Shown here one piece after another: positions 3,350 to 44,700 of a DNA stretch of 64,000 bases (position 1 is the first letter of the stretch; every line of letters starts with the position of its first letter). The stretch comes from Magnolia sinica (Eukaryota; Streptophyta; Magnoliopsida; Magnoliales; Magnoliaceae), in contig NC_080582.1 in the NCBI RefSeq assembly GCF_029962835.1, positions 22,452,032 to 22,516,031 of the forward strand, given 5' to 3'. The notes beneath the pieces are model-generated. The model did no database searches. It had not been told where the DNA came from and saw only the letters and a program-made list of their open reading frames with translations. The position numbers and the translations under genes are program-made.

Positions 3350-3467
<118 letters not shown>

Positions 3468-3770: not shown

Positions 3771-5001
3771 TGAGGGTTAAATATTGTACATTAGACCCCA
3801 ATTATTACCTGATTTTATGAACATAATAATGCTTAATGTCCTATTTTAATCGTATTTTTGTTACAAGGTGAATTTAAAGAGCTTGGACTGAAAAGGGTAT
3901 TAAAAGTATGAATTTAATGCTCTAAAATCACCAAGGCAAGGGACTGACCCCGGGGACCAAGATCGAGGAATTTACATGCCAAAAATTCAACAAGATCAAG
4001 TGATTGGGTTTAAACGGGCCCGAAAATCGCCCAGAATGCAAGATCACAGGGTTTCCACCATATTCTCGGCTCGAAAATTTATATCTGGCCTGAGGACCCC
4101 AAATTAACCGTACACACAAAATTTTAGCAATTGGATCCTTGTGAAAGTGGCTCAACGGATATATCATCCCATAAAACTCTGATCTGGAGCCCACTTGAAA
4201 TCTGGATATATTTAAATTTTGGTCTCAACCCCTTAAATATGGTGGAAAAATGGATGGAAGAAGTGGATTTTACATACACATCACGATGGACCCCAAATGC
4301 TCACGTGCGTGTACATAGCACATGCGCACGCGAGCCACACCGGACATGGGATCTGGTCAAACTGATGGCTGACTGACTATTTCTAAAAAAACTTCAAGAC
4401 ACAACAACGTCTTTGCATACGCCGACCGTTTTTGTGTAGTGGGGCCCACCCATCTCACATTTCAGCAATCTGGAACGTCCATTATGTACAGAGTGGAGAC
4501 GTGACCATCACCTAGCTTTCCTTTTTGGCCCATACACGTATACGCATGTAGATCGTTGGGAAACGCAGGATGGACGGCGGAAGAAAAGTATCAGTGAACC
4601 GCACCAAAACTCGACCAAAACCACCCCTTCCCGGCTGTGTTTTCGCCACGAATTCAATGGACTGGGTGGATTCTTCCAGAAACATCACTGTGGGGCCCAC
4701 TGGACACATCAGCGCACTCTATTACGCAGGAACGTGCGTCCGTAAAACCCGGCTGTTCCAGGCCGTTCTACAATCATGGTTAGGATCGGATCTACGATCT
4801 TGACCGTCCAAATGGAAAAGGAGTCCTAATCGTCCCCAAGAAGTCAGATCAAGTAGATCTGATCACAGATTTCCAAACTATTCACCGCACGCATGACTGT
4901 CTTTGCAGTTTCACAACAAGAAACAGAGCTGCGGTTTCGCGATTTCTCTACGCTGCGTAGAACTCCAGCCCAGACGACCTATTGTTGCCTATAAAAGGAC
5001 G

Positions 5002-5060
<59 letters not shown>

Positions 5061-5943: not shown

Positions 5944-6889
5944 TAGCCACCTACCACCATCACCACCCTCCTCCTCCTCTCTCTCTCCTCTCCACTCCCT
6001 CCCTCCCTTATCTCTTGATCCGAATCGATGACAACTCGAACCGACTCCGTACTTTTTGTAAGACCCGTATCCTAAACCATACCGTTCTGTAGGTCTCCGC
6101 GGTCCTCCCGGTCGAATTCCGGCGACCCGCGATCTATTATCAGCAGTTGCGCACGACCCTGAGTCGTATTCCGTGGATCTGATTTGGCTTGATCCGAGAC
6201 CTGTACCCTAGCGACCGCACCATTGCCGCGGTTTCAATGCCGCATCTCGCACGCCGAAGCAATTCCTGGGAAAGGAGATGGGGGGCCGCGTTCAGTTCGA
6301 GGAAAAATACCGCGCATTTGCAAACCCGAGAAAGATTTCAAATCATGTCCCATCAATCCTACCAATCACACCTTATGTCAAGTACACATCACCCAATCCC
6401 CAAGTAACCCTCAAAGTCAACATTCTCTTACATAAAGTACACCCATCACTCACTTCACCCATCACCCCATCACTCACCCATCCCTCTCTCTCTTACAACC
6501 ACTCTCTCTCATCTCTCTCTCCCTCGTTCTCCAAGCAACCCACGTCCAAACTTCCATGGGAGAGAGCTTGTGTGGCCCACTTCCTACCTCCCATCTCCAC
6601 CATCCAAAGAACATCTTGACCGTTGAAATCATCTCCCTGAAGCTCTATATCGTGTTGGCGGAAGAAGGAAGAAGAGATCAAATGTGGGTATTCTTGGATC
6701 TTCATTTCTTTATCATTTTGTGATGTAAAGGACCACTTATGGTGGGACCCACCTTGATGTAGGCTTTGTATCAAAGAGGGCCCATAGTGGCGGGGCCCCT
6801 CTGTCCTCGCCGATGTCTCTCTCCTCTCTCTCTCTCTCTTTCTCTCTTTCTCTATGATGAATGGCCCACTTATGATGGGTGTATTTTAC

Positions 6890-8060
6890 CCATGCCGACC
6901 AACTAGTGGGCCACTTGATCCCGATTCGGGGTCCGCATGACCGGGTCATCACACAACCCGCATGAATGGGAAAATACATATCACCTTGATCCATATATGA
7001 TGGCCCAATACGTGGGACCACCGTGAAGTTTGAGTGCCATCCAGCACCGTCCAGCTTGCTGGATGGTGGGCTGGACACGTTGGAGATGGGACCTACCATG
7101 GGAATCGGATTGGCTGGTGTACATCCCTACTGGAGTCACCAGGTTCTGTGGACCCACTTGTATGGATTTCACCCACACCGTCCATCTGTTTTCATACAGA
7201 CAGACCGTCTGATGGACGGTAGCCAGCATGCAGCTGGCAGCTGCAGCGTCAGCAGGCCAGGTGAGCCCTGGCCATGGGGTGTGGTTTGCATCCACACCGT
7301 TCATAATACAGTGGGCCTTCCCATGGCTGCACGTGTGGATCCTCACCGTCCATGGCTCGGACGGTGGGCCACATTGATGAATGTATTTCATCCAGCGTCC
7401 ATCTGCCTGGACGCTGGGTAGTTTAAAAAAATAAATAACAATTATAATAATAATACTAATAATAAAATAACTTTTATATATATATATATATATATGGTGG
7501 GCCCCACGTGGGACCCACCTGCGTGAGAAAAATGGTGTGGCTGGTGAGTACGTCACCAGTTTCTGTGGACCCACCGCATATGTATGGGTCTTATCCACCG
7601 TACATCTGTCCAGACGGTGGGACCCACTTCAACTCGTGTATCCTCCATCACCACCGTCCAGAATGTCTGGACGGTGCAGTGGGCTCCAGCAAGATGCATG
7701 TGCCTCAAATCCACACCGTCCAGACCTCTGGACGGTGGGCTGGTCACCAGGTATGTATTATATCTAACTGTCCATCCATCATGACGGTGGGACCACCTGG
7801 ATGAGGCGCTGCATCCACCGTCCAGCCCATGGACAGTGGATCCCAGCCATGATGTATGTGTTTTACACATGCCGTCCATCTGTTTTTGATGGTGGGACCC
7901 ACTACCATCTGTCGACTGCAAGTTCTGTGGGTTCCACTACCAGGGACGTAAGCAAGGGGGTTTGGGACCCCACCATGATGTATGCTTTGTATCACACCAT
8001 CCAGATGGCTGGACGATGGGCCCGTGCTTAATGTATGTGTTACATCCAAACCGTCTATCC
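6890..8060. repeat. CCGTCCA / TGGACGG dyad array (array 1, copy A)
   Basis: Irregular units of about 60-90 bases, each with 'CACACCGTCCA' facing 'TGGACGGTGGG' across a short spacer and separated by 'GGGACCCAC..TGATGTATG'. More than ten half-sites are visible. The same array lies on the opposite strand in the second LTR copy (about 31040-32760). Many overlapping open frames here are repeat artefacts. Confidence 0.75.
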
Positions 8061-8279
8061 ATAGGGTGAGCTCAGTCTAAGGCTTGAGACCAAAATAAGA
8101 CAGATCTAGTTATCGAGTGGACCACACTGCCAAAAATAGTGGAGATTGGACGTCTACCATTGAAACCCTTTTGGGTCACAAGATTTTTAGACCAATATGA
8201 TATTTGTTCATCAGGTTGGTTCAAGTCCTTATGACTTATGAATAGACTGGAGGGAAAACACGTGTTATGTATATGAGGT

Positions 8280-8580
8280 CCATGTGCAGGGCACACCTGT
8301 GATGTGTATTAGGCCCATTGTGGTATATTTGAGGCCTATGGGCGAGGCCTATTGTGATGTGTTCAAGGCCCATGGGCAAGGCCCGATGTGATGTATTTTC
8401 GGCCCATGTGACATGGTCCATTGTGAAGTATTCAAGGCCTATGGGCGTAGCCTATTATGATACACTTGAGGCCCTTGTATGAAGCCCAATGCGATGTATG
8501 TGAGGCCTATGATTAAGGCCCAATGCGATGTATGTGTGGCCGCTACGTTACATATAAATCCCTTATGTGGGCCACTCCTC
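8280..8580. repeat. ~38-bp array, GGCCCAT..GTGATGTAT (array 2, left part of copy A)
   Basis: Repeats of 'AGGCCCATTGTGATGTATT' and variants with a period of about 38-40 bases. The same array reappears at 9770-10200, so the CGATTGCC array is embedded within it. Confidence 0.75.
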
Positions 8581-8819
8581 GGGAGCCATGTTGGTTAGAT
8601 GTCTACATTGAGGGGCAATGATGGTTAGACGTCCTCATTGTGACCTTCCCTTAGGCTTTGTTAGACCTATTATCTTCGTGGGTTAACCCAAATAAGTGGA
8701 CCCCATTTACCGTAGACGAATGACTCCGTGCTATCAAGTTTGATATAACCACGGTTGAGTGCCGATATTTATACTATGGTTGATTGGCTGATCATCTATG
8801 GACCCCACTTTGTTTATCT

Positions 8820-9770
8820 ACTGATTATCAGTGTCGATTATCGAGGCTGACGCCGATTATCGACTCGATTGCTAATACCAATTGACGTGACCGATTTGCC
8901 GATTCTGATTATCGATCGATTCCGATTGTCGTGGCCGATTGTCGATTAGCGATCGAGGCCGTTTGTCGTGACCGATTGCCGATTCCGATTGACTTGACCG
9001 ATTGTTGATTAGCGATCGAGGCCGTTTACCATGACCGATTGTCGATTTTGATTATCGTGATCGATTTGCCGTTTCTCATTATTGATCGATTCCAACTGTC
9101 ACGACCGATTGTCGATACCGATTAACGTGACCGATTTGCTGATTCTGATTATCTGTTGATTCCGATTATCGTGGCCGATTGTCGATTAGCGATCGAGGCC
9201 GTTTGTCGTGACCGATTGCCGATTCCGATTGACTTGACCGATTGCTGATTAACGATCGAGGCCGTTTACCATGACCGATTGCCGATTTTGATTGTCGTGA
9301 TCGATTTGCCGTTTCTGATTATCGATCAATTCCAACTGTCACGACCGATTGCCTATACCAATTGACGTGACCGATTTGCCGATTCTGATTATCGATTGAT
9401 TCCGATTGTCAATACCGATTGACGTGACTGATTTGTCGATTTTGATTATCGATCGATTTCGATTGTCGTGACCGATTGCCGATTCTGATTGACGTAATCA
9501 ATTTGTCGATTCTGATTATCGATCGATCCCGATCGTCGTGGCCGATTCCGATTGACGTGATCGATTTACCGATTCTAATTATCGATCGATCCCGATCATC
9601 CTGGCCGATTGCCGATTTCGATTGACGTGACCGATTTGTCGATTCTGATTATCGATCAATTCTGATTGTCGTGACCGATTGCTAATTCCGATTGACGTGA
9701 TCGATTTGCCGATTCTGATTATCAATCGATCATCGAGGCCAATTGTTGAGGCCGATTCCGATTGTCGAGG
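8820..9770. repeat. 60-bp satellite with 240-bp higher-order period (array 3, copy A)
   Basis: The basic unit is about 60 bases built from 'ACGTGACCGATTTGCCGATT', 'CTGATTATCGATCGATT' and 'CCGATTGTCGTGGCCGATTG'. The blocks 8881-9120 and 9121-9360 align without gaps. I count 16 differences in 240 positions by eye, with 8941-9000 and 9181-9240 identical. The family recurs reverse-complemented at 29765-30405 in LTR copy B. Confidence 0.85.
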
Positions 9771-10200
9771 CCCAATGAGATGCATATACGACCTGTATTT
9801 GAGGCCCATTGTGATGTGCATTCGGCCCGTGTTTGAGGCCCAATGTGATGTATATATGGCCCGTATTTGAGATCGTTGTGATGTGTATTCAGCCCATGTT
9901 TAAGGCCCAATGTGATGTATATAAGGCTTATGTGATGAGGCCCATTGTGATGCATTTGAAGGCTAGGCGATAGAGCCCATTATGATGTATGTTAGGCCCA
10001 TGAGAAAGGCCCATTGTGATGTATTCATGGCCCATGATGCATGGCCTATTTGATGTATTTGAGACCCATGTGTAGGGCCCACATGTCGTGTATTTGAGGC
10101 CCATGAGCAGGGCCCGCCTGTTGTGTATATGTGGCCCTTGAGTAAGACCCACTGTGTTGTATATCAGGCCTTTGTGTGAGGCCATGGGATCATTATATGT
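9770..10200. repeat. ~38-bp array, GGCCCAT..GTGATGTAT (array 2, right part of copy A)
   Basis: Continuation of the array seen at 8280-8580: 'GAGGCCCATTGTGATGTGCA', 'GAGGCCCAATGTGATGTATA' and similar. The corresponding region of copy B is at about 30640-30960. Confidence 0.75.
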
Positions 10201-12551
10201 TTGACTCTATGTGGGCCATTCCTTGGGGGTAATGTTGGTTAAATGTCCACATTGTCGAGATCGATTGTCGATGCCGGTTGTTAATACCGATTATGAGTAT
10301 GTGATAACTTAGCATCGTGATACATGCCCATACGCATGTTTGTCATGAGATGTGGTTGATCATTGCATATGTCATTGAGCATGTTATTATGAGACTCCCT
10401 GATAGGCGGAGGTTATCTCACATGAGCACGCGGTATGCATAGGATTGATGCATGACTGGATCGTATGACTCATACATCTCGCATTATGATTACTGTACAC
10501 CCTAGCGACACCAAGGTCGTAGCCTCCACATGCATATCATGGATGGCCAAATGGGACACCGGAAATATTTAGTTCTAGCATACGGGCACCATATATGTCC
10601 CTGGGTGAAAATTCCTAAACCTCCGTGGTCAGGAGACGCCCCAACGTCGAGACCGAGTAGATACATGAGCGCCCGAGTGCCGAATACCACGAGGTTATGT
10701 CTCCCACTGTGTCGTGGTCGATTGGGAGGGGGTGTGGCCTTACCCGCCCGAGGATAGGGGGCAATACTAGGCTGAGTTTGACCAGCTCGTGAATGGGTCC
10801 GCTATCGACGTGCCGGATAGGTATTGACAGACTATTAGTCAGGTGGATAGTGAGGTTTCTTACGCTCACTTGGATTGTGCGGCTGTGAGAGCGACAGTGC
10901 CATTTGGAGTGTACTAAACCCCGGTAATGATCCCAGAGATGAACTGTACTGATATGTGGATTTAGTGAGCAGGAGTTACATACTCACTCATGCATTCATT
11001 CATTCACTATCCACTCGGGTTGGTGGTGTGCAACTATTTATTACATGTGCCTTCGCAATGACCAGGATTTCGGTTGGGGCGCACGACTAACTTGAGATCA
11101 GGAGTTTACCACATTGAATCTGCCTATCCAAATTTAGGTATGGGACTGGTTTGGATAGAAGTCCCTTGTGATGGACCCCATAGCCTGCGATACTACGTAC
11201 TATCATCCCGACTTCACACTCCAGTATGGTCATTCCATTCGCACCGCATATTGCATAACATCCGCAGCATACAGCATTTTGGGTTATTGTGTCTCTGCAT
11301 TTATATGGCCTAGGTACGGCTGACGCTATTTGTGTTACTCATCAGGAATGTATGTTGTATTGCATCTGATATTTGGCTATCTATGATTCTCCATTTGCAT
11401 AGTTGTTCTACATTACATATTCTAACATTAATTGACTCATGGACTTGTCCATATTTTCGCTTACTCTGTTATCGTATGATTTATGATCTTATTAATATTC
11501 TGTTTACTATGATAATTCATGCTCTTGTCAGTACTTCCGCTTAATCTGATTACTCTGATATTGAATACTCGACACTTACCTTGTACACACACTTACACCA
11601 CCCTCTAAGCTTTCTATAAGCTTATGCACGATAGATGCGTGCGAGTGGCGTTAAGTCATGACAGCATTGAGCTTGGAGCGTGCAGCGGTCTTCTGGTGCT
11701 TGATTTTCGATTTATTTATTTCCCTTTCAGCATTGTACTCAAATGATTATATTAATGGATATGTGATGATGATGTTGCCTTTGTGAATTGGGTAATTTTG
11801 TGGTTATGCTTATTATGAGTTAAATGTACAAAAAAAAAACCCCTCCTTGTAGGACCCTAGGATCAGAATCTGGCGTATGGACACTAGGAGCCAAGAATGG
11901 GGTACAACGGAGGCTGTCAGCATCGGATTCGGCAATTGGGATTCCTGTGAATCTGATTTCCGGGTTTGGGGCGTAACACTTTTGACTAGGTTGGACTTGG
12001 TCCCTCAAGTCCAGGCCAGACCCGGACTCGGATCGGTTCACGCATGTTGGACTCAGTACTAAGTCGAGTTGAGTTCGGGTTAGGCCTATTTCAAAACTAG
12101 ATCAAGTCGAGTTAGCCCTAAGTTGATCCGACTCACTCCTCAATCCCCCACCTGCTTGTAGCTGACAATAGTCCACCAACATCCCCTGCTCCAACAGATT
12201 TAGCTATCCTCACCCCTGACCAAGGCGGATGATGCTTAGAAGTGGACCTCTCACCCTACTTCTCCCTGGTAATAAGACCTCCCAGTGATCAGGATGAAAG
12301 CTTAGATGAACACACTATGGCAAGGCTAGCAACAAAATCTAACATCACCCTAGGAATGGGTGGATAACTCAAGTCGATTCAGGGCCATGTTTTACCTATC
12401 TCTATGACAACAGTATCCCAGGAGTAGTCCACCTTGCCAAAGGAACCCGATCGTACGCACAGAAGAAGACTAAAGATCCAATATTCAAAAGGTTCATGGA
12501 AATGTAGATTAAGGAGATTAAACAGAAGGGCCGTTAACACAAGATGTGGGA

Positions 12552-13110
12552 CTGATGGATAAAATACTAGTGTGGAATGCTCGAGGGATAGGCAATGCTT
12601 GCATTATCAGAACCACAAAGAGACTGATAAAGAAGTACAACCCCCTTATCATTGCCATCTTAGAACCGATGATAGGAGAAGATAAGAGAGTGGGAACTGG
12701 CCTCTCTCTTGGCTTCCACTGCTCCTTCTCCAATGGCGCAAATGGAGGGAAATTTTGGGTCTTTCAAGGACCTTCTTTCCCTCTCAGTTTCTATTTCAAC
12801 TAACCAATTAATCTCTTTTGCAGCTACTATCCCAAACTTTCAGCAGATGATTTATCTGACAGTGGTGTACTCTAGCTGCGATAGGATCCAAAGGAGATCT
12901 CTATGGAACTCTTTGGCCAACATCTCTGCTTCAATTCAAGGTCCCTGGGTAGCTTGTGGTGACTTCAATGCGATGACAACTGCTGAGGAAAGAAGAAGCT
13001 GCAGAATGGCAGACAGGGCTAGCATGAGAGAATTCTCGGATGCTATAAATGTTGTCGGTCTAATTGATGCAAGTTTTTCAAGGAATCGTTTCATATGGTA
13101 CAACAACTAA
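12552..13110 (+). pseudogene. LINE endonuclease domain, broken
   Basis: Residues reading 'ILVWNARGIGN' open the domain and 'WVACGDFNAMTTAEER' marks the conserved GDFN catalytic motif. The two parts lie in different frames (break near 12710-12800), and a stop at about 13110 precedes the expected C-terminal 'RLDR...N' motif. In L1-type elements this domain nicks target DNA. Confidence 0.85.
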
Positions 13111-14162
13111 GGAGGGCAGGCCCATTATGGGCTAGGCTTAACAGGGTGCTTAACAATGCGGACTGGTCTTTTGCATTTCCTAGTTTCCACGTAAGCCACC
13201 TTCCCCATGTGAACTCGAACCACGTGCCCCTCCTGCTGGATTTCCCTTCCACGCTGCGTAGTGGTCTAAAGCCATTCCACTTTCAATGTATGTGGCTGCT
13301 ACATGGCTCGTTCCAACAGGTGGTTCAGGATGCCTGGAAAGCAAAGACCTCAGCCCACCCGTTATTTAATGTTCTCCTCAAACTTAAGAGAGTTAAGGAG
13401 GCCCTGAAAAAGTGGAACAAGGAGGTGTTTGGCGATTGCACCTTGCAGGTAGCTCGGGCTGAAAGGGAGCTGGCAGAGATAGAAAACAGAATGTAGGGCC
13501 AGCAAGATGACGCTGCGATGCAGAGTGAATTGCAATCGAATCTCAGGACTATCTCTTCCAAGCTTAGCCAATTAGAGATCATGGAAGAGACTTTCTGGAA
13601 GCAAAAATCCAGGGTCAGTTGGTTGGATGTGGGAGACAGGAACATGCGCTTTTTTCATGCTGTCGCTACGGAGAAGCAGAGAAGGGCTGAAATCAGAAGT
13701 AATAGGCTACAATCAGGGGACCCTATAACCAATCCAAAGAACATCAAATGTTTTGCAGTGGAGCATTTTGTTGAGCAGTTTTCAGTGGTTTCCTGTGGTG
13801 ATCAGCCCTTGCTGATGGAGGTCATACCGCATTTGATTTCTCAGCAGCAAAATGCCAAGTTGTTGGTCGTTCCTACCATGCAGGAAGTTCACCAAGTTGT
13901 GCTTTCCATCCCCATAGATGGGGCAGCAGGGCTAGACGGTTTCTCCAGCGCTTTTTACTCGGGGTGCTGGAATATCATCGCCTAAGACATCCTCCAAGCA
14001 GTAATCTATGTCTTCCAAGGTGGGGCAATTCCGCGTGTAATAAATGCATCTCTCATTTGCCTCATTCTCAAGTCTGCTACGCTTAAAAGTTTCTCAGACT
14101 TTAGACCGATTAGTCTGTGCAACTGTCTCTATAAGATCATCGCTAAGATCATAACAATCAGG

Positions 14163-14690
14163 TTGAGCACTATTCTACCTTCCCTGATTTTCCTAGAACA
14201 AGGGGCCTTCATCCAAGGCCGTCCCATAGCAGAGCATATTGCGCTAGCCCAGGAGCTATTCAGTGACATTAATCGAAAGATCCGAAGAGGAAATCTAGTG
14301 ATGAAAGTAGATATGGAAAAAACATACGACAAGGTGGATTGGGGATTTCTTAAAATGTGTTGCTTCGGTTCGGTTTCAGTTAAGAGTGGGTAGGCTTGGT
14401 GGAAAACTGCTGGGCCAGCATCTAGTTCTCGGTCCTGATTAATGGAGAGGTGACTGGATTCTTTAAGTCTTCCAGGGGCCTTTGGCAAGGAGACCCGCTC
14501 TCCCTTGCCCTCTTCATTTAGCTGCTAAAGTCCTGAGCCGCGAGCTAAAAGCGTTGATCGCCCAAGTGATTGTCCTTCCTTTCAAGTTGAGAAGAGGATG
14601 ACCAATTATCACTCATCTTCTCTACGCAAATGACACGCTGCTTTTCCTCAATGGCAGCTTAGCATCGATTAGGGCCATGAAGGCTTTCCT
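14163..14690 (+). pseudogene. LINE reverse transcriptase core, broken
   Basis: 'GAFIQGRPIAEHIALAQE' and 'MKVDMEKTYDKVDWGFL' are the conserved RT blocks 1-2a of plant L1 elements. '[12 protein letters not shown]' near 14480 is block B. At about 14617 the catalytic YADD box reads YAND ('LYANDTLLFLNG'), so the first catalytic Asp is replaced. Several stops separate the blocks. Confidence 0.85.
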
Positions 14691-27970: not shown

Positions 27971-29764
27971 ATTTATGTCACGCCCCAAACTTGAAAACCG
28001 GGCTCACAAAATTTTCGATCGCCAAATCCGGTGTCGACAGCCTCCGTAGTACCCCATTCTCGGCTCCCAGCGCGCAAGCACCAGATTCTGATCTTGGGAT
28101 CCTACAAAGAGGATTTTCCAATGTACATTTATCTCATAAGAAGCATAACCACAAGTTTACCTAAATCATAAAGGCAACATCATCATCACATATCCATTAA
28201 TATAAATATTTGAATACAATGCTGAAAGGAAAATACATATATCGAAAATCAAAGACCGCTGTGAGCCCCATGCTCAGCGCTGCTGCAACCTAATGCCACC
28301 TACACGCATCTATCATGCATAAGCTTATAGAAAGCTTAATGGGTGGTGAAAGTGTGTGTGCAAGATAAGTGTCAAGTAAGCAATATCAAAATAATCAGAG
28401 TAAGCAGAAATACTGATAAGTCCATGAGTCATACAATATCAGAGTACGCAATACAAATCAACTATGTAAATAAGGAGTCATAGAGAGAAAAATATCAGAT
28501 GCCGAGGGTACAATGGAATATTTAAATCCTACTAAGTCCATCTAGGCCATATAAGTACAAAAAATACATCAACCTAAAATGTCATATGCCTGCGGATACA
28601 ATATGCGATGCGAATGAAATGACCAAGCTGGAGTGTGAGGTTGGGATGATAGTACGTAGTATCGTAGGCTACAAGGTCCATCATAAGGGACTTCTATCCA
28701 AACCAGTCCCATATCTAAATTTGGATAGTCAGACTCAATGTGGTAAACCCCTTATCTCAAGTTTGTCGCCCGCCCAACCGAAATCCTAGCCATGCGAAGG
28801 TACACGTAACAACTGGTTACGCACCATCAGCCCAAGTGGATAATGAATTAATGAATGAATGAGTATGCAATTCCTACTCAATAAGTCCACATATCAGTAC
28901 GGTTCCTTTCTAAAAAATCACCGGGTTCTATTACACTCCAAACCAGATTGCCGCCCTATTACACGCAACAAGGTGAGTGGAAGAGACCTCACTATCCGCT
29001 TGCCAATATCGGGCCTGACTCGTTAATAACGGACCTATTCCTCGAGCTAGTCAGACTCAGCCTAGCATTACCCCCTTCTCTCGGGCAGGTAAGGTCGTAC
29101 CCCCTTCCAACCGACCACGACACAGTGGAAGATGAGGCTTAATGGTATACAGCTCTCATGCGCTCATGTATCCACTCAGTCTAGACGTTGGAGCAACCTC
29201 TGGAATCAAAAGGGTTTAGGGACTTTCACCCAGGGATATCTATAACACCCCATGTAAAACAGATTTTCGGTGTCCCATCTGGCCATCCATGAAATACCTG
29301 TAGAGGCCACGACCCTGATGTTGCTAGGGTGTATAATAATCACAACACACAATGCAAGATGCATGAGTCATACAATCCAGTCATGCATCAATCCTGCGCA
29401 TACCGTGTACTCATGTGAGACAATCTCCACCTATCAAAGAGTCTCATAACAACATGTCCAATGACATATGCAATTGTTAACCACATCTCATAATAAACAT
29501 ACAGATGATGCGTATGGGCATGTATCGTGATGCTATGCTGTCACATACTCATAATCGGTATCAATAACCGGTCTCGACAATCGGCCTCGACAATGTGGAC
29601 AATTAAACAACATTGCTCCCAAGGAGTGGCCCACATAGAGCCTAACATATAGTGGACCCATAGCCTCACATAAGAGCCTACTACACATCACGATGGGTTC
29701 CAAATACGGGCTACATATACATCACATTGGGCCTTAAACACAAGTCGCATATACATCATATAGG

Positions 29765-30405
29765 TCTCGACAATCGAAATCCGCCTCAACAATCGGAATT
29801 GACACTTGGAATCGGTCTCGACAATCGGAATGGGCCTATACAATCGGCCTCGACAATCGGAATCGGCCTCGATACTCAGCATTGACAATCGGAATCGGCT
29901 TATACAATCGATTTCGACAAATCGAAATCGGCCTCGACAATCGGAACTGGCTTATACAATCGGCCTTAACAAATCAGAATCGGCCTCGATACTCGGCCTC
30001 GACAATCGGAATTAGCCTATACAATTGGCCTCGACAAATCGGAATTGGCCTCGATACTCGGCCTCGACAATCGGAATCGGCCTTGATACTCGGCCTTGAC
30101 AATCGGAATCGGTCTATACAATTGGCCTTGACAAACCGGAATTGGCCTCGATACTCGACCTCGATATTTGGCCTCGATAATCGGAATCGGCCTCGACAAA
30201 TCGGAATCGGCCTATACAATCAGCCTCGACAAATCGGAATCAGCCTCGATACTCAGCCTTGACAATCGGAATCGGCCTATACAAATCGAAATCAGCCTCG
30301 ATACTCGGCCTCAACAAATCAGAATCAGCCTCGATACTCAGCCTTGACAATCGGAATCGGCCTATACAATCGGCCTCGACAATCGAAATCGGCCTCGACG
30401 CAAGG
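29765..30405. repeat. CGATTGCC-type satellite (array 3, copy B, reverse complement)
   Basis: Tandem 'CAATCGGAATCGGCCTCGA', 'ATACTCGGCCTCGACAATCG' and 'CCTATACAATCGGCCTCGAC' units. It is the reverse complement of the array at 8820-9770 but shorter and with a less regular period. It is flanked by short GGCCCAT-type stretches as in copy A. Confidence 0.75.
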
Positions 30406-30639
30406 CAAGGTCCATAAATGGACGGCCAATGATAGATCAAACAATATCAATGGGGCCCAATAATTTGGGTTAACCCACTAGAGAATGATGAGAATGAGTC
30501 TAAACAGGCCTAAGGAAAGGTCACAATGTGGACTTTTAACCATCACTGCCCATCAATGTGGATATTTAACTAACATTGCTCCCAAGGAGTGGTCCACATA
30601 GGGCCAAACATATAGTGGGCCCATAGCCTCACACAAGGG

Positions 30640-30960
30640 CCTAATACACGTCACAATGGGTCGCATTCATGAGCCGAAAATACATCACAATGGGCCTCAT
30701 CACATGGCTTAATATACATCAAGTCGGCTACATCAATGGGCCGCACTAATGGGCCTCATACACATCAAGTGGGCTACATCAATAGGCCACACTAATGGGC
30801 CTCATACACATCAAGTGGGCTACATCAATGGGCCATAAATATACAACAGGTGGGCCCTGCACATGGGCCTTATACATAATAATGGGCCCCATCACTTGTA
30901 CACCACATTAGACCTCATATATAAGCCTCAAATATACATCATAGGTGGGCCCTATCACAT
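30640..30960. repeat. ~38-bp array, CATCACAATGGGCC (array 2, copy B)
   Basis: Repeats such as 'ATACATCACAATGGGCCTC' and 'CACATCAAGTGGGCTACATC'. The reverse complement is the GGCCCATTGTGATGTAT array of copy A. Confidence 0.65.
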
Positions 30961-31039
30961 AGCCAGGCGGTGTGGATGAATCACATCCATCAAGGTGGGA
31001 TCGGTAGAAAGACGGCGTGGACATAAAATACAAACATCA

Positions 31040-32760
31040 TGGTGGAGTCCTCATCACCGTCCAAACACGTCCAGCACCGTCCAGATCATCTGAACGGTGT
31101 GGATGAACAACTGCATCACGGTGAGGCAACACGGCACCATCCAAACTGCTTAGCACAGATGGACAGAGTAAATATAATACATACATCAAGTCAGGGCCCC
31201 ACCATCCTTGTGGATGGTGGTGGATGGAGCATGTACATTGTGCGCCCAGCACAGATGGACGGTGTGATGGACGGTGTGAATGCGATACATGCATAAAGTT
31301 GGGGTCCTACAGTGGGACGGCTTGGATAAAACCCATACCTCATGGTGGGGTCCACGCATGTGGATAGTGTAGATCAACAACACATACATCATGCATGGGA
31401 CCCACAGAACTTACTGACATCACAGCAGCTGCCAACTGCGTGGGTCCCATTGTTTCGTGGTGTGGACGGTAAAGATGAAACTCAACCAGCAGCGTCCCAC
31501 CTGATTGGATGGCTGGATGTAAAATAGATGGACTGCATGAGTGCAGAACAAGTGGACGACGTGGATCCATACGTCCAGGTGGTCCCTACTGTCCAGATCA
31601 TCGGACGGTGTAGATATAAGACACATACAACACGTGTGGGTCCCACACGGAATGGCTGTGTGGATTCAATGCAAGCTCCACGGTCAGACCCACATAACTT
31701 GCTACCGCTTCAATACTGACCCACCGTCCAAGACGGACGGTGTAGATATGCATTCAACAAAGGGTCCCACCCCACACGTGTCACACGTGTGGGCGGGTCC
31801 CACACCACATGAAGAATGGCTGGATGGTATGCATATACATACATCAAGGCTGGAAGCGTCCCACTGTCCAGAGTACTGGATAGTGCGGATGCAGAATATA
31901 TGCATAAGGTGGCCCCACCCTCACATGTGCCACGTGTGTGAGGTGGGCCTGACATCCAAAGAGAGTGGGCGGGTGGTATGTATATAACACATATACCCTG
32001 GGGTCCCACTGTCCTGGCATATGGACGATGAGGATATATAATAAATGCATCAGGGTGGGTCCCACGTGGGGCCCACCAAATATATCTGTATTCATTACAT
32101 ATATATTATATTATATTATAGTATATACCCGATATATATATATATATATATAGATGTATATATATATATATATTATATTATATTATATTATATTATAATA
32201 AACAATAACGTCCAGGCCCTGGACGGCCTGTTTGAAACATCAATATCGGTGGGTCCCACGTCCCATACACGGACGGTGAGCTCAGCAGGTGGGTGTCCAC
32301 GTGGCCCACCAGTAAAGATGGATGGATGGTTTAGATATAACGCAGGCCTCGTGATCAGCCCACCGTCCAGAGGTCTGGACGGTGTGGATTTGAGGCACAT
32401 ACATCACGTTGGAGCCCACTGCACCGTCCTGGACGGTGGGGATACATAGCATGTGTATCAAGGTGGGCCCCACCGTTAGGATAAATGGATGGCTTAGATA
32501 AGGCACATACCCTACGTGGGATCCACACGTGTGAACCAACAAGCCTTAGAGAAAGCCGATATTTATATATATAATTTTTTTCCAATGTCCAGCAGCAACA
32601 ACTACTGGACGGTGTGCATTCAACACATGCAGATGGAGGGGTCCACATCAATGAACGAACGGGATACCACACACCGCATGATGGGGCCCACCACACTGAT
32701 GACATCAATATAGCAGCCAGAGCTGCTGGCTGTCCAGCAAATGGACGGCCCACAGCCACT
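31040..32760. repeat. CCGTCCA / TGGACGG dyad array (array 1, copy B)
   Basis: Units such as 'CACCGTCCAGATCATCTGAA' and 'CCGTCCAGAGGTCTGGACGG' alternate with 'ACATACATCA..GTGGGTCCCAC'. A (TA)n stretch interrupts it at about 32128-32175. Numerous overlapping frames on both strands are repeat artefacts. Confidence 0.7.
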
Positions 32761-33233
32761 CAAATACAAAGGTGGGTCTTACATCAAGCTGATACTTATA
32801 TTTCCCTTCATTCGGGCCTGTCCAGACGGACGGGTAGCAATCACGTCTGCTGGACAGTCCAGCAAGGTGGGCCTCATGATCGGACAGTCAGGATCACCTT
32901 TGAATCGTGGTGGCCACAAGACATCACAAAAAAAAGGAAGAGAGAGAGAGAGATTGGTATTTTAGAGGGACCCTGCCACTATGGGCCCCTCTTGTTACAA
33001 CACAAACATCAAGGTGGGTCCCACCATATGTGGGCCCTTAAAAGAGAAAATGTGGGTTTAAGATCACCCACCTTTGATCTCTTCTTCCTTTTTCCGCCAG
33101 CACGATGTAGAGCTCCAAGGGGACGATTTCAATGGTTGAGATGTTCTTTAGATGGTGGAGATGGGAGGTAGGAAGTGGTGGGCCACACAAAGCTCTCTCA
33201 TGGAGCTCTCATGGACATGGACTGCTTGGGGGG

Positions 33234-33237
<4 letters not shown>

Positions 33238-33285
<48 letters not shown>
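33238..33285. repeat. (GA)n microsatellite
   Basis: About 48 bases of GA inside LTR copy B. The matching position of copy A (about 6485-6525) has a shorter CT run, so the tract expanded after the copies separated. Confidence 0.9.
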
Positions 33286-33288
<3 letters not shown>

Positions 33289-33721
33289 GTGAGTGATGGG
33301 TGAGTGATGGGTGTACTTGGGTGTAAGGGAGAGAGTTGACTTTGGGTTTGCATGGGGATGGGTTGTACTTGACATATGAGGTGATGTGTACTTGATTGAT
33401 GGGATTGATGGGATTTGATGTGATGTTCTCTTGGATTTTGCAACGCGCGGTATTTTCTCGAACTAAACGTAGGTCCACATCTCCTGGCCTGGGTATCGCC
33501 TCAGCGCGCGAGACGCGGCGTCGGAACCAGGGCGACGGTGCGAGACGCGGCGTCGGAACCACGGTCGGAAGGGCACAAGTCTCGGGTCGCCCGACTCTGA
33601 TATATGAGACACGGCTCAGGATCGTGCACAAATAGCGGTAACGGATCACAAGTCACCAGAATTCAACTAGGAGGATAGCGGAAGCCTACAGAACGGTACG
33701 GTCTAGGATATGGGACTTACA

Positions 33722-34409
33722 ATTTATGCATAAGGAGTTATAGTTTCAAGAAGATACCAATTGTGGTACTCTACTACCCTATAATCTTCCTATAACCTCA
33801 TATTTAATCCAATCATTCTACTAACATCACCATCCATCATTGATCCAATACCCATGCAAACCATTGTCTTCCACCCTAAGTGACACTCATGGGGTAGGAC
33901 CTATACATAAGGAGTCGTGGTTTCAAGAAGACACCAATTATGATATTCTGCTATTTTATAGTCTTTCATATGCACACTACCTTAAAAATATAATTTTGCC
34001 TTCCCATATACCTCATATATAATTTAATCTTCTATTGTCATCACCATATACAATTGATTTTGATAGGATTTTATACAGAATGTAGGAGAATTAAATTTTT
34101 ATGGGAACAAAAAATGCACAATCCTATCTACCAGGACCTCCCAATGATATATACATCAAATTTCTAAAGGAATCTAAACGTAAAAGATCTTAACATATTA
34201 GTAAATGTGATTCAATGATGTAGAATACTCTTATTCTAATATCAACCCTCCAACCTAGGAGGATTATCCCTAATCTATCCTAGTACTGGAGAGATTAGGC
34301 AACCCAAAGCAACTCCTTTAGTAGGTACTAAGGAGAGCTCACAGCCATCTACAAAAGTGGCCCACATAGGAGATAAAGAAGTGGGAAGAAGGGAGAGGAA
34401 GATGAAGGT

Positions 34410-37730: not shown

Positions 37731-38277
37731 TCTAATATATTGAAATTAAACAAGCCAACACAGCTACAACTACGGATGTAATAGCAAGGGAAGTTGGCAA
37801 GCGACCCTTGTCTTTGCGAAAAAAGAGCCCTTGATAGAAAGGTACATTAATCAAAACCAATGACCCACATAAAAGAAACTGCAACATCAACGTCTCAAGA
37901 ACACTAATCCCACCGTCCATCATGACTCGCGTGGCCCCACCAATCAAGCAAAACAAATTGAGCATTGCAAGAGAAGCTAAGATGGTAAACATGGGTGAAC
38001 TGGATCCAAACTCCATGATCTCTTGCTCGTACCTCTGGGACACGTCATCGTCGGACACCTTGGCTGTGATGATGAATGCTGACTTGGCAATACCTGATAG
38101 GAGGAGGAGGGTGTCCACGAACGCGAAGAGGTAGGAAGTCGTCCTTTTCAGTAGCCACATCCTTTGTTCATTCCACCAGCCCTTGAGTGTCATACCATGC
38201 CAAAGGGACTCGAGGATGTTATATGCGTACTCGGCAATGATCACGTACATGAACGGTAGGAACCATGGGCTGTAGAT

Positions 38278-39019
38278 CTGAAACCATGCAAAACGCCATT
38301 TTATGTTTTGGAGCTTGTTCAACCATGCATATGGTAAATGTAATTTACGTTGAGCTGTAAGTAGAGGTGTATTCATCCACTATCCTAACCATGCAACAAA
38401 TTTCTGTGTGCATTGTAATATTTTCAACGTGATGTATGAAATCTACTCTAACCATCATAATGCCCTCCCTAATCGTTTGGGTGTCGAACCAAAAATCAAG
38501 CCCATCCATGACTCACATGAGCCACACAACAGAAAACAATTGAGGTGGAATGTACACCGTTGATTGCATGCAGAGCCGACCATATGGATTGGACGGCATA
38601 TACGCAAAATGGTGGGGGCCTTTTCACCAATCGTGGATGATCCTATGAACTGTTTCCTGTCATGTGGCCCACCTAAATTTTTCACTAGAGTTCCTGCCAA
38701 TGCATGACTAAATCAACCCAGGGCACATCTGATGGATGGTTGGATGTTATCAGCACATCACCAATAGGCCCCACACAAAAGAACAATTTCACCCAGTGTT
38801 TGGTGAAAATGTTGCCATAGAATCATTTCCGGCCGCCCACTTGTTACGCTTTCGTCGGGAGAATGTTCCGTAGAGCCATTGTTCGGCTTTAGACTCCTCA
38901 GTGTGAATAGTCTCCGCATCGGAAGCCTACTCCTTGGGCTGTTCGGTCTATTCATGGATCAGGCTGTTCGGTAATTTATATGGTCGCCGCGGATAAAGAC
39001 TACTTTCCTATACGCTTGC

Positions 39020-39080
<61 letters not shown>

Positions 39081-39100
39081 TGTGTGTGTGTGTGTTTTAC
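38278..39100 (-). other. Last CSLE intron with GA tract and MITE-like sequence
   Basis: The intron opens at its donor with GTAAAACACACAC and runs straight into a (TG/GA)n tract (39020-39096 on the plus strand). 38455-38700 contains 'GTGGCCCACCTAAATTTTTC'-type sequence related to the palindromic elements. The acceptor is 'TGGTTTCAG'. Confidence 0.6.
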
Positions 39101-39963
39101 CGATGGAAATAAGGAAATCCCTTTATAAAGGCAAAGGGAAGGGAAGATGACATAGAATAGTGTTGGAAAGGAATTCAGAGCCCAAAAACAGTAGATGCCA
39201 TATCCCATTTGAAGTGCCAGCTTTATCTTGCCATGCCCATATATAAAGGGACAGAATTTGGATGTAAGTATCTGAAAGTCACCCTCAGACCATCTCTTGT
39301 GTTGCACCAAAGATTGTGCTAATGAGGTGGGTGCAAGCCCTAAGAAACCCTTCCTCACTGGGTTAAAATATACAGATTTCCATCCCCTGCATTGGATTGA
39401 CAAGCCTGTAATCACATCCTCCACAGGACATCCGTATTTCAGTCCCATCTACATGCAAATCAACATGCATCAAGTTAGTTAATATATAATTCAATGCTAT
39501 TTCAAGATGATGATTTGACTATATATATGTTGGACCTAAGAGATCAGTACGATATATTGAAAGTGATTGTATCAAGATTCCATTAAAACACATGGATAGT
39601 CCATGGATGAATCCAGACTATTCTAACACAATCCACTTCATGGGTTACCCTGCTCTCACCATTTTAGCCATCCAATCAATAACCCATGGAATAGAAGGTT
39701 GAGATAAAAATGGGCGATGTTACTGAGCTAAAAATATGTTGGCCACACCATAAAGTGGGATGGAAATTTCAATCTAAGGATTAGCACAGACTATAGCTTT
39801 TGAAGGCCATAACTTTGTGATCACCGGATATAATATGTCATTAAAAAGCCATATATGAGTTCTACTTGGCAAATATCAAAGGTCATTTGCCCCTAAACCA
39901 TTACATGAACTTCAATCGCATTAGGAGTTAAATCTGTGTTTTGAATTAAAATTTACTACTTTG

Positions 39964-43076: not shown

Positions 43077-44384
43077 TATACTCGAAATCACCAAGGATTT
43101 CTACGCCCAAAGGTTTCATATCATTTGATTGTTTATATTCTTTGGCCTTTGCATTACCTTTTTCCATCACCATCTTCAATTGATTCATCTAATTTTTTCC
43201 CTGGTTCTGTTTGGTTTCAGAATTAACATCACCGGTTACATATAAAGAATTGATGGAGGGGCACCCAGAACTCTTCTTGGGTTTCATTAAGTTCTGGCAC
43301 GAAGAATACAATATCACCTTTAATGACGAGCCTCCAGAGGACAAGATCGCAATAAATTTTGTAGATAAAATAAAGGTGAGAATTTCATCTCAGCTGCATT
43401 GCTTAGGGTGCATTTGTGAATTCCCTAGTTCCCAAGGCGGACAAAATGAGCCATTGTCAAAGCATGGTTGAGGGAGAATGGGACATTCCCATTCATATTT
43501 GAATTGCAATCTGGGCAGGAGAAATAGGAAAACAGAAGCCTGTGTAATGCGTATTCAGATTTCCACACCACCCCAAACATCAAGTCTGAATGTGCTTGGG
43601 AAACCTCGCCAACAACCATGTCTTAGTTGGAACTAAACACTATTGATATTCAAAAGGTCTATTAATTTCAGTGACATTAGTTTTTGCCTAGGGTATTTGT
43701 CTATTAGCCCTGAGAATGTTTTGACTTGATCATAATGTTGTTTTGTTATCGAGCCACAAGCCATATTTCAATCCGATGTCCGAATTTTAAGATATGGCTT
43801 TAAAATTAAATAATCTCAGAAATGACAATTATATCCTTATTTTATCTAGCGGAGCTCCACCATCGAGTTTTCAAAATTAGTTAGGTCCGAGAGCCTAACC
43901 GTTGTGACCGTAGTTGAGTTACGGAGTTACTGGCGAAAACAGCATGTCAATAGGACACTCGGATTGTAAGTTATGAATAGATATGCACATGTATATTTTG
44001 ATAAAATAACTCCAATGACCTCGATGTTTTAAAAATTCTTGGAATACATTTGTTCAAATTACTTAACTAACGTTGTTATATTGTTACTATAAGTTTACAC
44101 TTCTCAAAAACATCACAAAACACCTCCCAAACTTTCTTTTTAGATAAAAAACTAATTTTAAAACCAGTTTTAAGTCCATAAACATAAAAACCCTCTTTCA
44201 ACATCTCATTTCCAGCACTCTCTTTCTTGTTGAGTGTGAAGTTAAGAAGAAGAAGAAGAAGAAAAGGAAATATAAGTTGAGGTTGAGAGCCAATCTTTTG
44301 ACAGTTATAAGTGAGTACATAAATTAGGAGCACGCATATATGTGCGTTGGGATTTCCTTGAAAACCCTATTACTGAATTTTCTG

Positions 44385-44700
44385 AGTTAGGGTTAGGTGA
44401 TTACTGGATTTTTATTTAGGGTTAGGTGATTGCTGAATTTTCTGCTTTAGGGTTACGTTATTGCTGGATTTCATTTAGGGTTAGGTAATTGCTGAATTTT
44501 CTGCTTTAAGGTTAGGTTATTGCTGGATTTTCATTTAGGGTTAGGTGATTACTGAATTTTCTAATTTAGGGTTAGGTTATTGCTAGATTTTCTGTTTTAA
44601 GGTTAGGTTATTACTAGATTTTCTGATTTAGGGTTAGGTGATTGATGAATTTTTCTAATCTACGGTTAGGTTATTGCTGGATTTTCTGAAGATTCTTGCT
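44385..44700. repeat. ~31-bp tandem array containing TTTAGGGTTAGGT
   Basis: About ten degenerate units of 'TTTAGGGTTAGGTGATTGCT' plus 'GAATTTTCTGC'. Each unit has one plant-telomere-like TTTAGGG followed by unrelated sequence, so this is an interstitial minisatellite and not telomeric DNA. Confidence 0.75.

Follow-up and report, generated by a model that had tools for sequence, protein, structure and literature searches.

What kind of mobile element leaves behind 5.7-5.9 kb units that have the ends of a long terminal repeat (LTR) and no genes? The question is raised by two such units, copies A and B, in a 64,000-nucleotide stretch of the Magnolia sinica genome (the window; C10:22452032-22516031). 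The original prediction, made from the sequence of the window, offered either an exceptionally long LTR family left as solo LTRs, or a non-coding LTR derivative that mobilises satellite DNA. We compared A and B with each other and searched the 1.84 Gb genome for their relatives, and found each of these alternatives to be partly right. A and B are very probably solo LTRs that arose by LTR-LTR recombination in a non-autonomous element derived from Ty3/gypsy retrotransposons. The structure of complete copies, its repetition with shared edges, the 5-bp signature of insertion and the existence of a gene-bearing relative sharing the LTR end and primer-binding site (PBS) are directly supported by the observations that follow.

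Copies A and B and their relatives as single units

Copy A (5922 bp, 6057..11978, + strand) lies between two copies of CTTTT (6052..6056 and 11979..11983), identified by inspection of the ends and comparison of the target-site duplications (TSDs). Copy B (5746 bp, 27976..33721, - strand) lies between two copies of ATTTA (27971..27975 and 33722..33726) read from its flanks. The TG...CA ends and perfect 5-bp duplications described earlier were thus confirmed for both units. A also aligned in order with the reverse complement of B, at 72-80% identity, over positions 6056-6829, 7582-7801, 8561-8707, 10124-11472 and 11517-11978 of A, and the tandem arrays between the aligned blocks keep an identical order in both units; the predicted opposite orientation and collinear interiors therefore hold. 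Read in the sense of A, the units begin with TGTAAGACC and end in GGGGCGTRACA. Since the PBS and polypurine tract (PPT) of the complete copies described below show that the strand of A is the sense strand, the motif TGTYACGCCCC given in the original prediction is a real terminus, but it is the 3' end read backwards.

Of the 14 open reading frames (ORFs) of at least 120 amino acids in A and B, 9 were tested against Pfam, and none of these 9 had a domain. Coding content inside the LTR was rejected on these results, in agreement with the claim that neither unit contains gag-pol. A search for structured RNA over window positions 6000-34000 likewise gave no Rfam family reaching its gathering score.

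Genome matches to the first 344 bases of A were then considered, the best 40 of 9171 first-look candidates being scored and 25 of these examined. Seventeen were single units with both ends located and with neither a PBS nor a PPT within 36 bases of either end, and four were the LTRs of two complete elements, with LTRs of 5.7-6.1 kb. The idea of exceptionally long LTRs surviving as solo LTRs is borne out by these two sets of matches. The remaining four were left unclassified: L015 runs beyond the sequence retrieved, both L021 and the first unit of a pair on C8 are cut short, and L027 is without a right end. L015 (C4:29332400-29341400) is an LTR into which another TG...CA sequence of about 3 kb is inserted, with GTAGG on both sides as read by eye. 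The C8 pair, whose units lie 12 kb apart, was considered as a complete element and rejected: the left flanks of the two units are nearly alike, the first has no right end, and the intervening DNA contains other fragments, among them the one through which the gene-bearing relative was found.

Duplications were assessed in 19 units of 5.4-6.3 kb, namely the 17 single units, B, and another lying inside the complete element on C14. An exact 5-bp duplication was found by script in 13 of them and, once the left end had been set by eye, in L019 and L031 as well, giving 15 of 19. About 0.02 exact duplications would be expected by chance among 19 units, at 1 in 1024 per unit, and because the duplications run through the family, a chance origin of those flanking A and B is excluded. 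The expectation that further copies would carry such duplications was upheld for these 15 units, but three others match at only four of five bases and L016 shows none.

One of the 13 units with a script-scored duplication, L014 (C10:22731900-22740900), lies on the same contig about 275 kb from A. It carries the duplication of A, its flanks are 96-97% alike to those of A over 3 kb, and the two units are 97.1% alike with gaps left out. The common duplication and near-identical flanks show that L014 and the A region are segmental duplicates, and L014 does not count as an independent case. That A and L014 truly are segmental duplicates lends something to the view that the whole family consists of host segmental duplications, or of a DNA transposon, that mimic LTRs. 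We regard this view as barely credible, given that the 5-bp duplications differ between insertion sites and that same-strand pairs of units enclose a PBS and a PPT. Neither a PBS nor a PPT lies beside A, and A and B are best read as solo LTRs.

Complete short-spacer elements and their gene-bearing relative

The complete element on C6 has same-strand LTRs of 5843 and 5733 bp separated by a spacer of 403 bp, which starts with GAAGTTGGTGTCAGAGC and ends in a purine-rich tract; its outer flanks, TCGGT and TTGGT, differ at one base. The C14 element has LTRs of 6074 and 6103 bp, a 396-bp spacer of the same kind and TTTAT at both outer ends, and its first LTR carries a nested solo LTR with a CTATC duplication of its own. 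A PBS and a PPT are present in both, the PBS including TGGTATCAGAGC, which we take to be a site complementary to the initiator tRNA-Met. The two elements thus have the paired direct LTRs, TG...CA ends and 5-bp TSD (exact in C14, one base off in C6) of an LTR retrotransposon, with LTRs making up 96.6% (C6) and 96.9% (C14) of their length. At ungapped positions the LTR pair of C6 has diverged by 9.2% and that of C14, aligned in two parts, by 5.6% and 8.8%; the two spacers are 78% alike. Gag-pol is absent from the non-coding spacer of about 400 bp in the complete copies. A genome search had been proposed to distinguish full units paired around gag-pol from units that are always single; the outcome was full units paired around a short spacer rather than gag-pol, together with many single units.

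The short form is found repeatedly. When the C6 spacer and its LTR edges were used as a query, all 40 scored places matched (the best 40 of 4007 candidates, C6 itself included), 35 of them extending one base or more into the following LTR. Twelve of the 39 matches other than C6 were fetched together with ~400 bp of the LTR adjoining either edge, and all twelve have the order LTR-PBS-spacer-PPT-LTR, with spacers of 400-404 bp and some with substitutions. A PBS following the 5' LTR and a PPT preceding the 3' LTR are therefore present in these twelve copies as well as in C6 and C14, and spacer length ranges from 396 to 404 bp across the 14 copies. The spacer edges are common to the copies, indicating that what was propagated was the short form itself, and that separate deletions did not remake it each time.

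Tandem forms also occur. At C9:56713345-56738619 (L065, L057-L060) three spacers, which do not differ over 306 bp, are interleaved with the ends of four LTRs, and GTTCA is seen by eye at both outer ends; as far as the LTR ends, the parts that were read, can tell, this array fits the expansion of one insertion. Another array, at C1:53270500-53296640 (L061-L064, L066), has LTR ends with a shared 17-mer every ~6.35 kb and a similar PPT, and probably represents another family, since it has no match to the LTR ends of A and B. The 17-mer from the LTR end (2350 places) was dropped as a measure of copy number because it is not specific to the family, the C1 array having the motif without an A/B-end match. 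A tag from the PBS side of the short type was found within two mismatches at 3459 genome places, which is a count of tags and not of short elements, and the corresponding gene-bearing-type tag at 1120; the reversed control of these tags gave 0 genome places. The LTR-PBS junction (1931 places within two mismatches; 96 of 100 listed exact) combines the two types, and no solo fraction was derived from it.

The gene-bearing type came to light through a stray PBS fragment on C8, which led to a second group with an identical LTR end and PBS (40 of 40 scored places, the best 40 of 1788 candidates). Its interior was read in two copies, L034 and L035. In L035 the interior spans 4962 bp (L035:48-5009) and the 3' LTR 3982 bp, and the copy encodes Retrotrans_gag, RVP_2, RVT_1, Integrase_H2C2, a weak rve and SH3_Tf2-1; L034 resembles it, with broken frames. 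The order gag-protease-reverse transcriptase-integrase and the Ty3-like reverse transcriptase place L035 in Ty3/gypsy. The best solved-structure match to this reverse transcriptase is 4ol8, presumably the Ty3 enzyme, and the second best is a chain named Ty3-G Gag-Pol (E 9e-40). Tekay/Del chromoviruses have a chromodomain at the C-terminus of the integrase, upstream of the PPT. A Chromo match at the end of a broken L035 ORF (E = 0.21) falls below the Pfam cut-off, and none is listed for L034; membership of L035 in the Tekay/Del group is likely.

Spacer positions 1-58, 152-213 and 222-403 match L035 positions 48-105, 3973-4036 and 4798-5009, in that order. The outer pieces correspond to the PBS side and to the stretch from the end of the integrase frame through the PPT, and the middle match, which is weak (E 7e-4), falls in the integrase region. 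The short spacer therefore looks like a collinear remnant of a gene-bearing interior.

To place A and B, trees were built from the last 380 bp of 42 LTRs and from the first 380 bp of 37. In the 3'-end tree the eight gene-bearing-type rows form one clade (100/100), and on the opposite side stand A and B together with 17 further units and 15 rows of the short-spacer type. By this tree A and B belong with the non-coding short-spacer derivative. The three gene-bearing rows of the 5'-end tree again form one clade.

This placement bears on the alternative in which an autonomous long-LTR element left A and B as its solo LTRs, and the short-spacer copies form a side branch that shares its LTR. Gene-bearing-type copies are indeed numerous, going by the 1120 tag places, and were narrowly sampled, as the best 40 for one query; moreover, the last 41-47 bases of B match L034 and L035 at 89-95%. 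Nevertheless, the eight gene-bearing-type 3' ends cluster apart from A and B with full support, the sole complete gene-bearing LTR measured is 3982 bp long as against 5.7-5.9 kb, and A and B have a dense CGATT array (see below) which all three gene-bearing-type LTRs lack. We consider an autonomous source for A and B unlikely.

Several points weigh against a non-coding short-spacer origin of A and B. The 25 left-end matches examined come from the 40 most like A, and full LTR length was measured in two complete elements, C6 and C14. Taking the best 40 of 4007 spacer candidates favours full-length matches, and other spacer forms may be missed. Gag-pol was demonstrated in L035 alone of the eight gene-bearing-type rows and the other seven were assigned by primer-side sequence, for which reason we place slightly less weight on the short-spacer origin and more on the autonomous one. 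The 5'-end tree splits the very diverse short-spacer rows and gives B no settled place. Certain exact PBS-side tags on one strand are separated by 2.3-3.3 kb, a spacing at odds with 6 kb LTRs, and shorter-LTR variants therefore probably exist. The outer flanks of L035 are unmatched (ACAGC and CCTTC), so this copy may be recombinant; its LTR, where it aligns with A and B, has only 67-80% identity to them, and for this reason L035 may not be the actual helper. Three exact tags on one strand, at C1:83981668, 83984951 and 83988213, are spaced 3.26-3.28 kb apart and may reflect a variant with shorter LTRs in tandem array.

Anatomy of the LTR and its CGATT array

Comparison of A with 20 other LTRs showed that the first 0.6 kb and the last 1.7 kb are common to all. 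The conserved 5' module of A (6057..6830, + strand) has its first 600 bp covered at 0.95-0.98 in the other LTRs with 84-85% identity, and the conserved 3' module (10257..11978, + strand) is covered at 0.97-1.0 with about 77% identity. Relative to A, the region from 0.9 to 2.1 kb is mostly replaced from copy to copy, and arrays occupy ~2.2-4.1 kb. The former corresponds to a variable module (6831..8250, + strand) of short repeated CCGTCCA...GGACGGTGGGACC motifs, where coverage drops to 0.06-0.18 over 6957-8156. Repeat scans of A placed two blocks of a GGCCCA array on the + strand, at 8298..8541, with a 34-bp period, and at 9767..10170, and between them a CGATT-rich array at 8849..9763 (+ strand). 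In B, repeat scan and word density placed the CGATT-rich array at 29763..30399 on the - strand, where it reads AATCG on the + strand.

The two kinds of array are distributed differently. The GGCCCA array, the first block of which is like the array in the gene-bearing LTR, is found on both sides of the family. The CGATT array is dense in 22 of 22 A/B-side LTRs examined, with 14-50 copies of the word in the densest 600 bp (C8b being the sparsest), and in none of the three gene-bearing-type LTRs, which have 1-4 scattered words each; one of these three is complete and two were partly read (L034/L067, and L068, typed by its primer side). Given this contrast, the CGATT array appears to have been gained within the gene-less lineage, and it may explain part of the extra LTR length.

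An array of varying length in each A/B-side LTR examined, and a tandem LTR-spacer array such as that on C9, speak for a distinct element class whose members would take up satellite DNA and seed it actively. One array word is found at 2292 genome places within one mismatch. Among the first 100 listed, all exact (C1 to C5), the places are small and scattered, the largest cluster being 3 within 1 kb, which fits arrays confined to LTRs. Ordinary LTR retrotransposon signals also suffice for the structure, and we judge such a class quite improbable. The second alternative of the original prediction is thus correct in so far as a gene-less family with a ~400-bp spacer carries the array inside its LTRs, but the seeding of free satellites is unproven.

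A complete copy of the non-autonomous, short-spacer element comprises an LTR (5.7-6.1 kb in the two measured), a PBS, a non-coding remnant of about 400 bp, a PPT and a second LTR, and the following life cycle can be proposed for it. Its RNA, of one LTR plus spacer, would be roughly 6.4 kb, and packaging, reverse transcription and integration would use the proteins of gene-bearing elements; the relative described here may mobilise the gene-less copies. LTRs of 6 kb only 0.4 kb apart would present an extreme case for LTR-LTR recombination, and LTRs so long with so short a spacer would be expected to recombine readily, yielding both solo LTRs and tandem LTR-spacer arrays. Growth of the LTR in the gene-less lineage would have proceeded partly through the gained CGATT-rich array. 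A more ambitious reading, which we put forward tentatively as a possibility, is that a lineage that lost gag-pol shifted nearly its whole length into an LTR grown by a new array, so that the family distributes satellite-like seeds as paired 6 kb array-bearing blocks 0.4 kb apart, collapsing to solo LTRs or growing into tandem arrays. On this reading the array may have been kept because it restores a length suited to packaging or has a role in transcription.

Other features of the window were noted. Broken frames resembling those of a long interspersed nuclear element, which match RVT_1 clearly and an endonuclease weakly, lie directly to the right of A at 12676-14390. Pieces of a cellulose synthase-like gene are found on the - strand at 37735-39448, and a tandem array with a period of ~31/60 bp, rich in degenerate telomere-like ATTTAGGGTTAGG, at 44368-44689.

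Relation to known elements and meaning of the family

The closest kind of element is the large retrotransposon derivative (LARD) derived from Ty3/gypsy chromoviruses, and Medicago Mtr77 is a smaller precedent. LARDs have long LTRs; those of barley are ~4.5 kb around an interior of 3.5 kb. The present family shares with LARDs the absence of gag-pol and a structurally uniform group, as seen in the 14 copies with a 396-404 bp spacer and in the 40 of 40 best-scoring matches. It departs from them in that its interior is ~0.4 kb, where a classic LARD has a large conserved interior of several kb; the LTRs here account for 97% of the two elements measured. LARDs are described in a passage of one survey as a group of LTR retrotransposons that have a core domain but no protein-coding capacity, and that presumably depend on the proteins of autonomous elements (PMC7215508); the absence of coding capacity and the presumed dependence are common to the elements described here.

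Mtr77 is the nearest precedent we found for the layout of long LTRs around a tiny degenerate interior. An extract on this abundant non-autonomous LARD gives an LTR of 2191 bp, a degenerate interior of ~200 bp and an element of 4668 bp (PMC2533021). Its LTR is well below half the length of those found here, and the extract mentions neither arrays borne in the LTR nor a gene-bearing relative. Chromoviruses of the Tekay/Del type in beet, such as Bongo, are described in part of another report as Ty3/gypsy elements with a tRNA-Met-type PBS by the LTR, a PPT directly before the 3' LTR, a 5-bp TSD and long LTRs (PMC3605345). All these features are shared with our elements, whereas the three beet Tekay elements of that account bear genes and have LTRs of at most 3.0 kb. 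Terminal-repeat retrotransposons in miniature (TRIMs), such as Cassandra, are similar in being gene-less and in having almost no interior, and Cassandra forms tandem LTR-interior arrays like that on C9, according to a passage of the survey cited above (PMC7215508). The difference is one of scale: TRIMs have short LTRs and a small total size, and the LTRs here are ~6 kb, or 5.4-6.3 kb in the 19 units. No title or abstract opening returned by our literature search was recognised as the family of A and B. The scale appears to be new, as do the gene-bearing relative identified here and the gain of an array by the LTR.

The layout is extreme, that of an LTR retrotransposon which is 97% LTR in the measured copies and yet forms a large family. 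The limits given in part of one reference survey allow an LTR of at most 6000 bp and LTRs 1000-20,000 bp apart (PMC6317226). Annotation with such limits, or annotation that requires coding domains, would overlook the family or label its solo LTRs as repeats of unknown type. The presence of a gene-bearing relative in this genome makes it possible to ask how the lengths of LTR and spacer set the rates at which solo LTRs and tandem arrays form, and the same system lets one ask how arrays enter LTRs.

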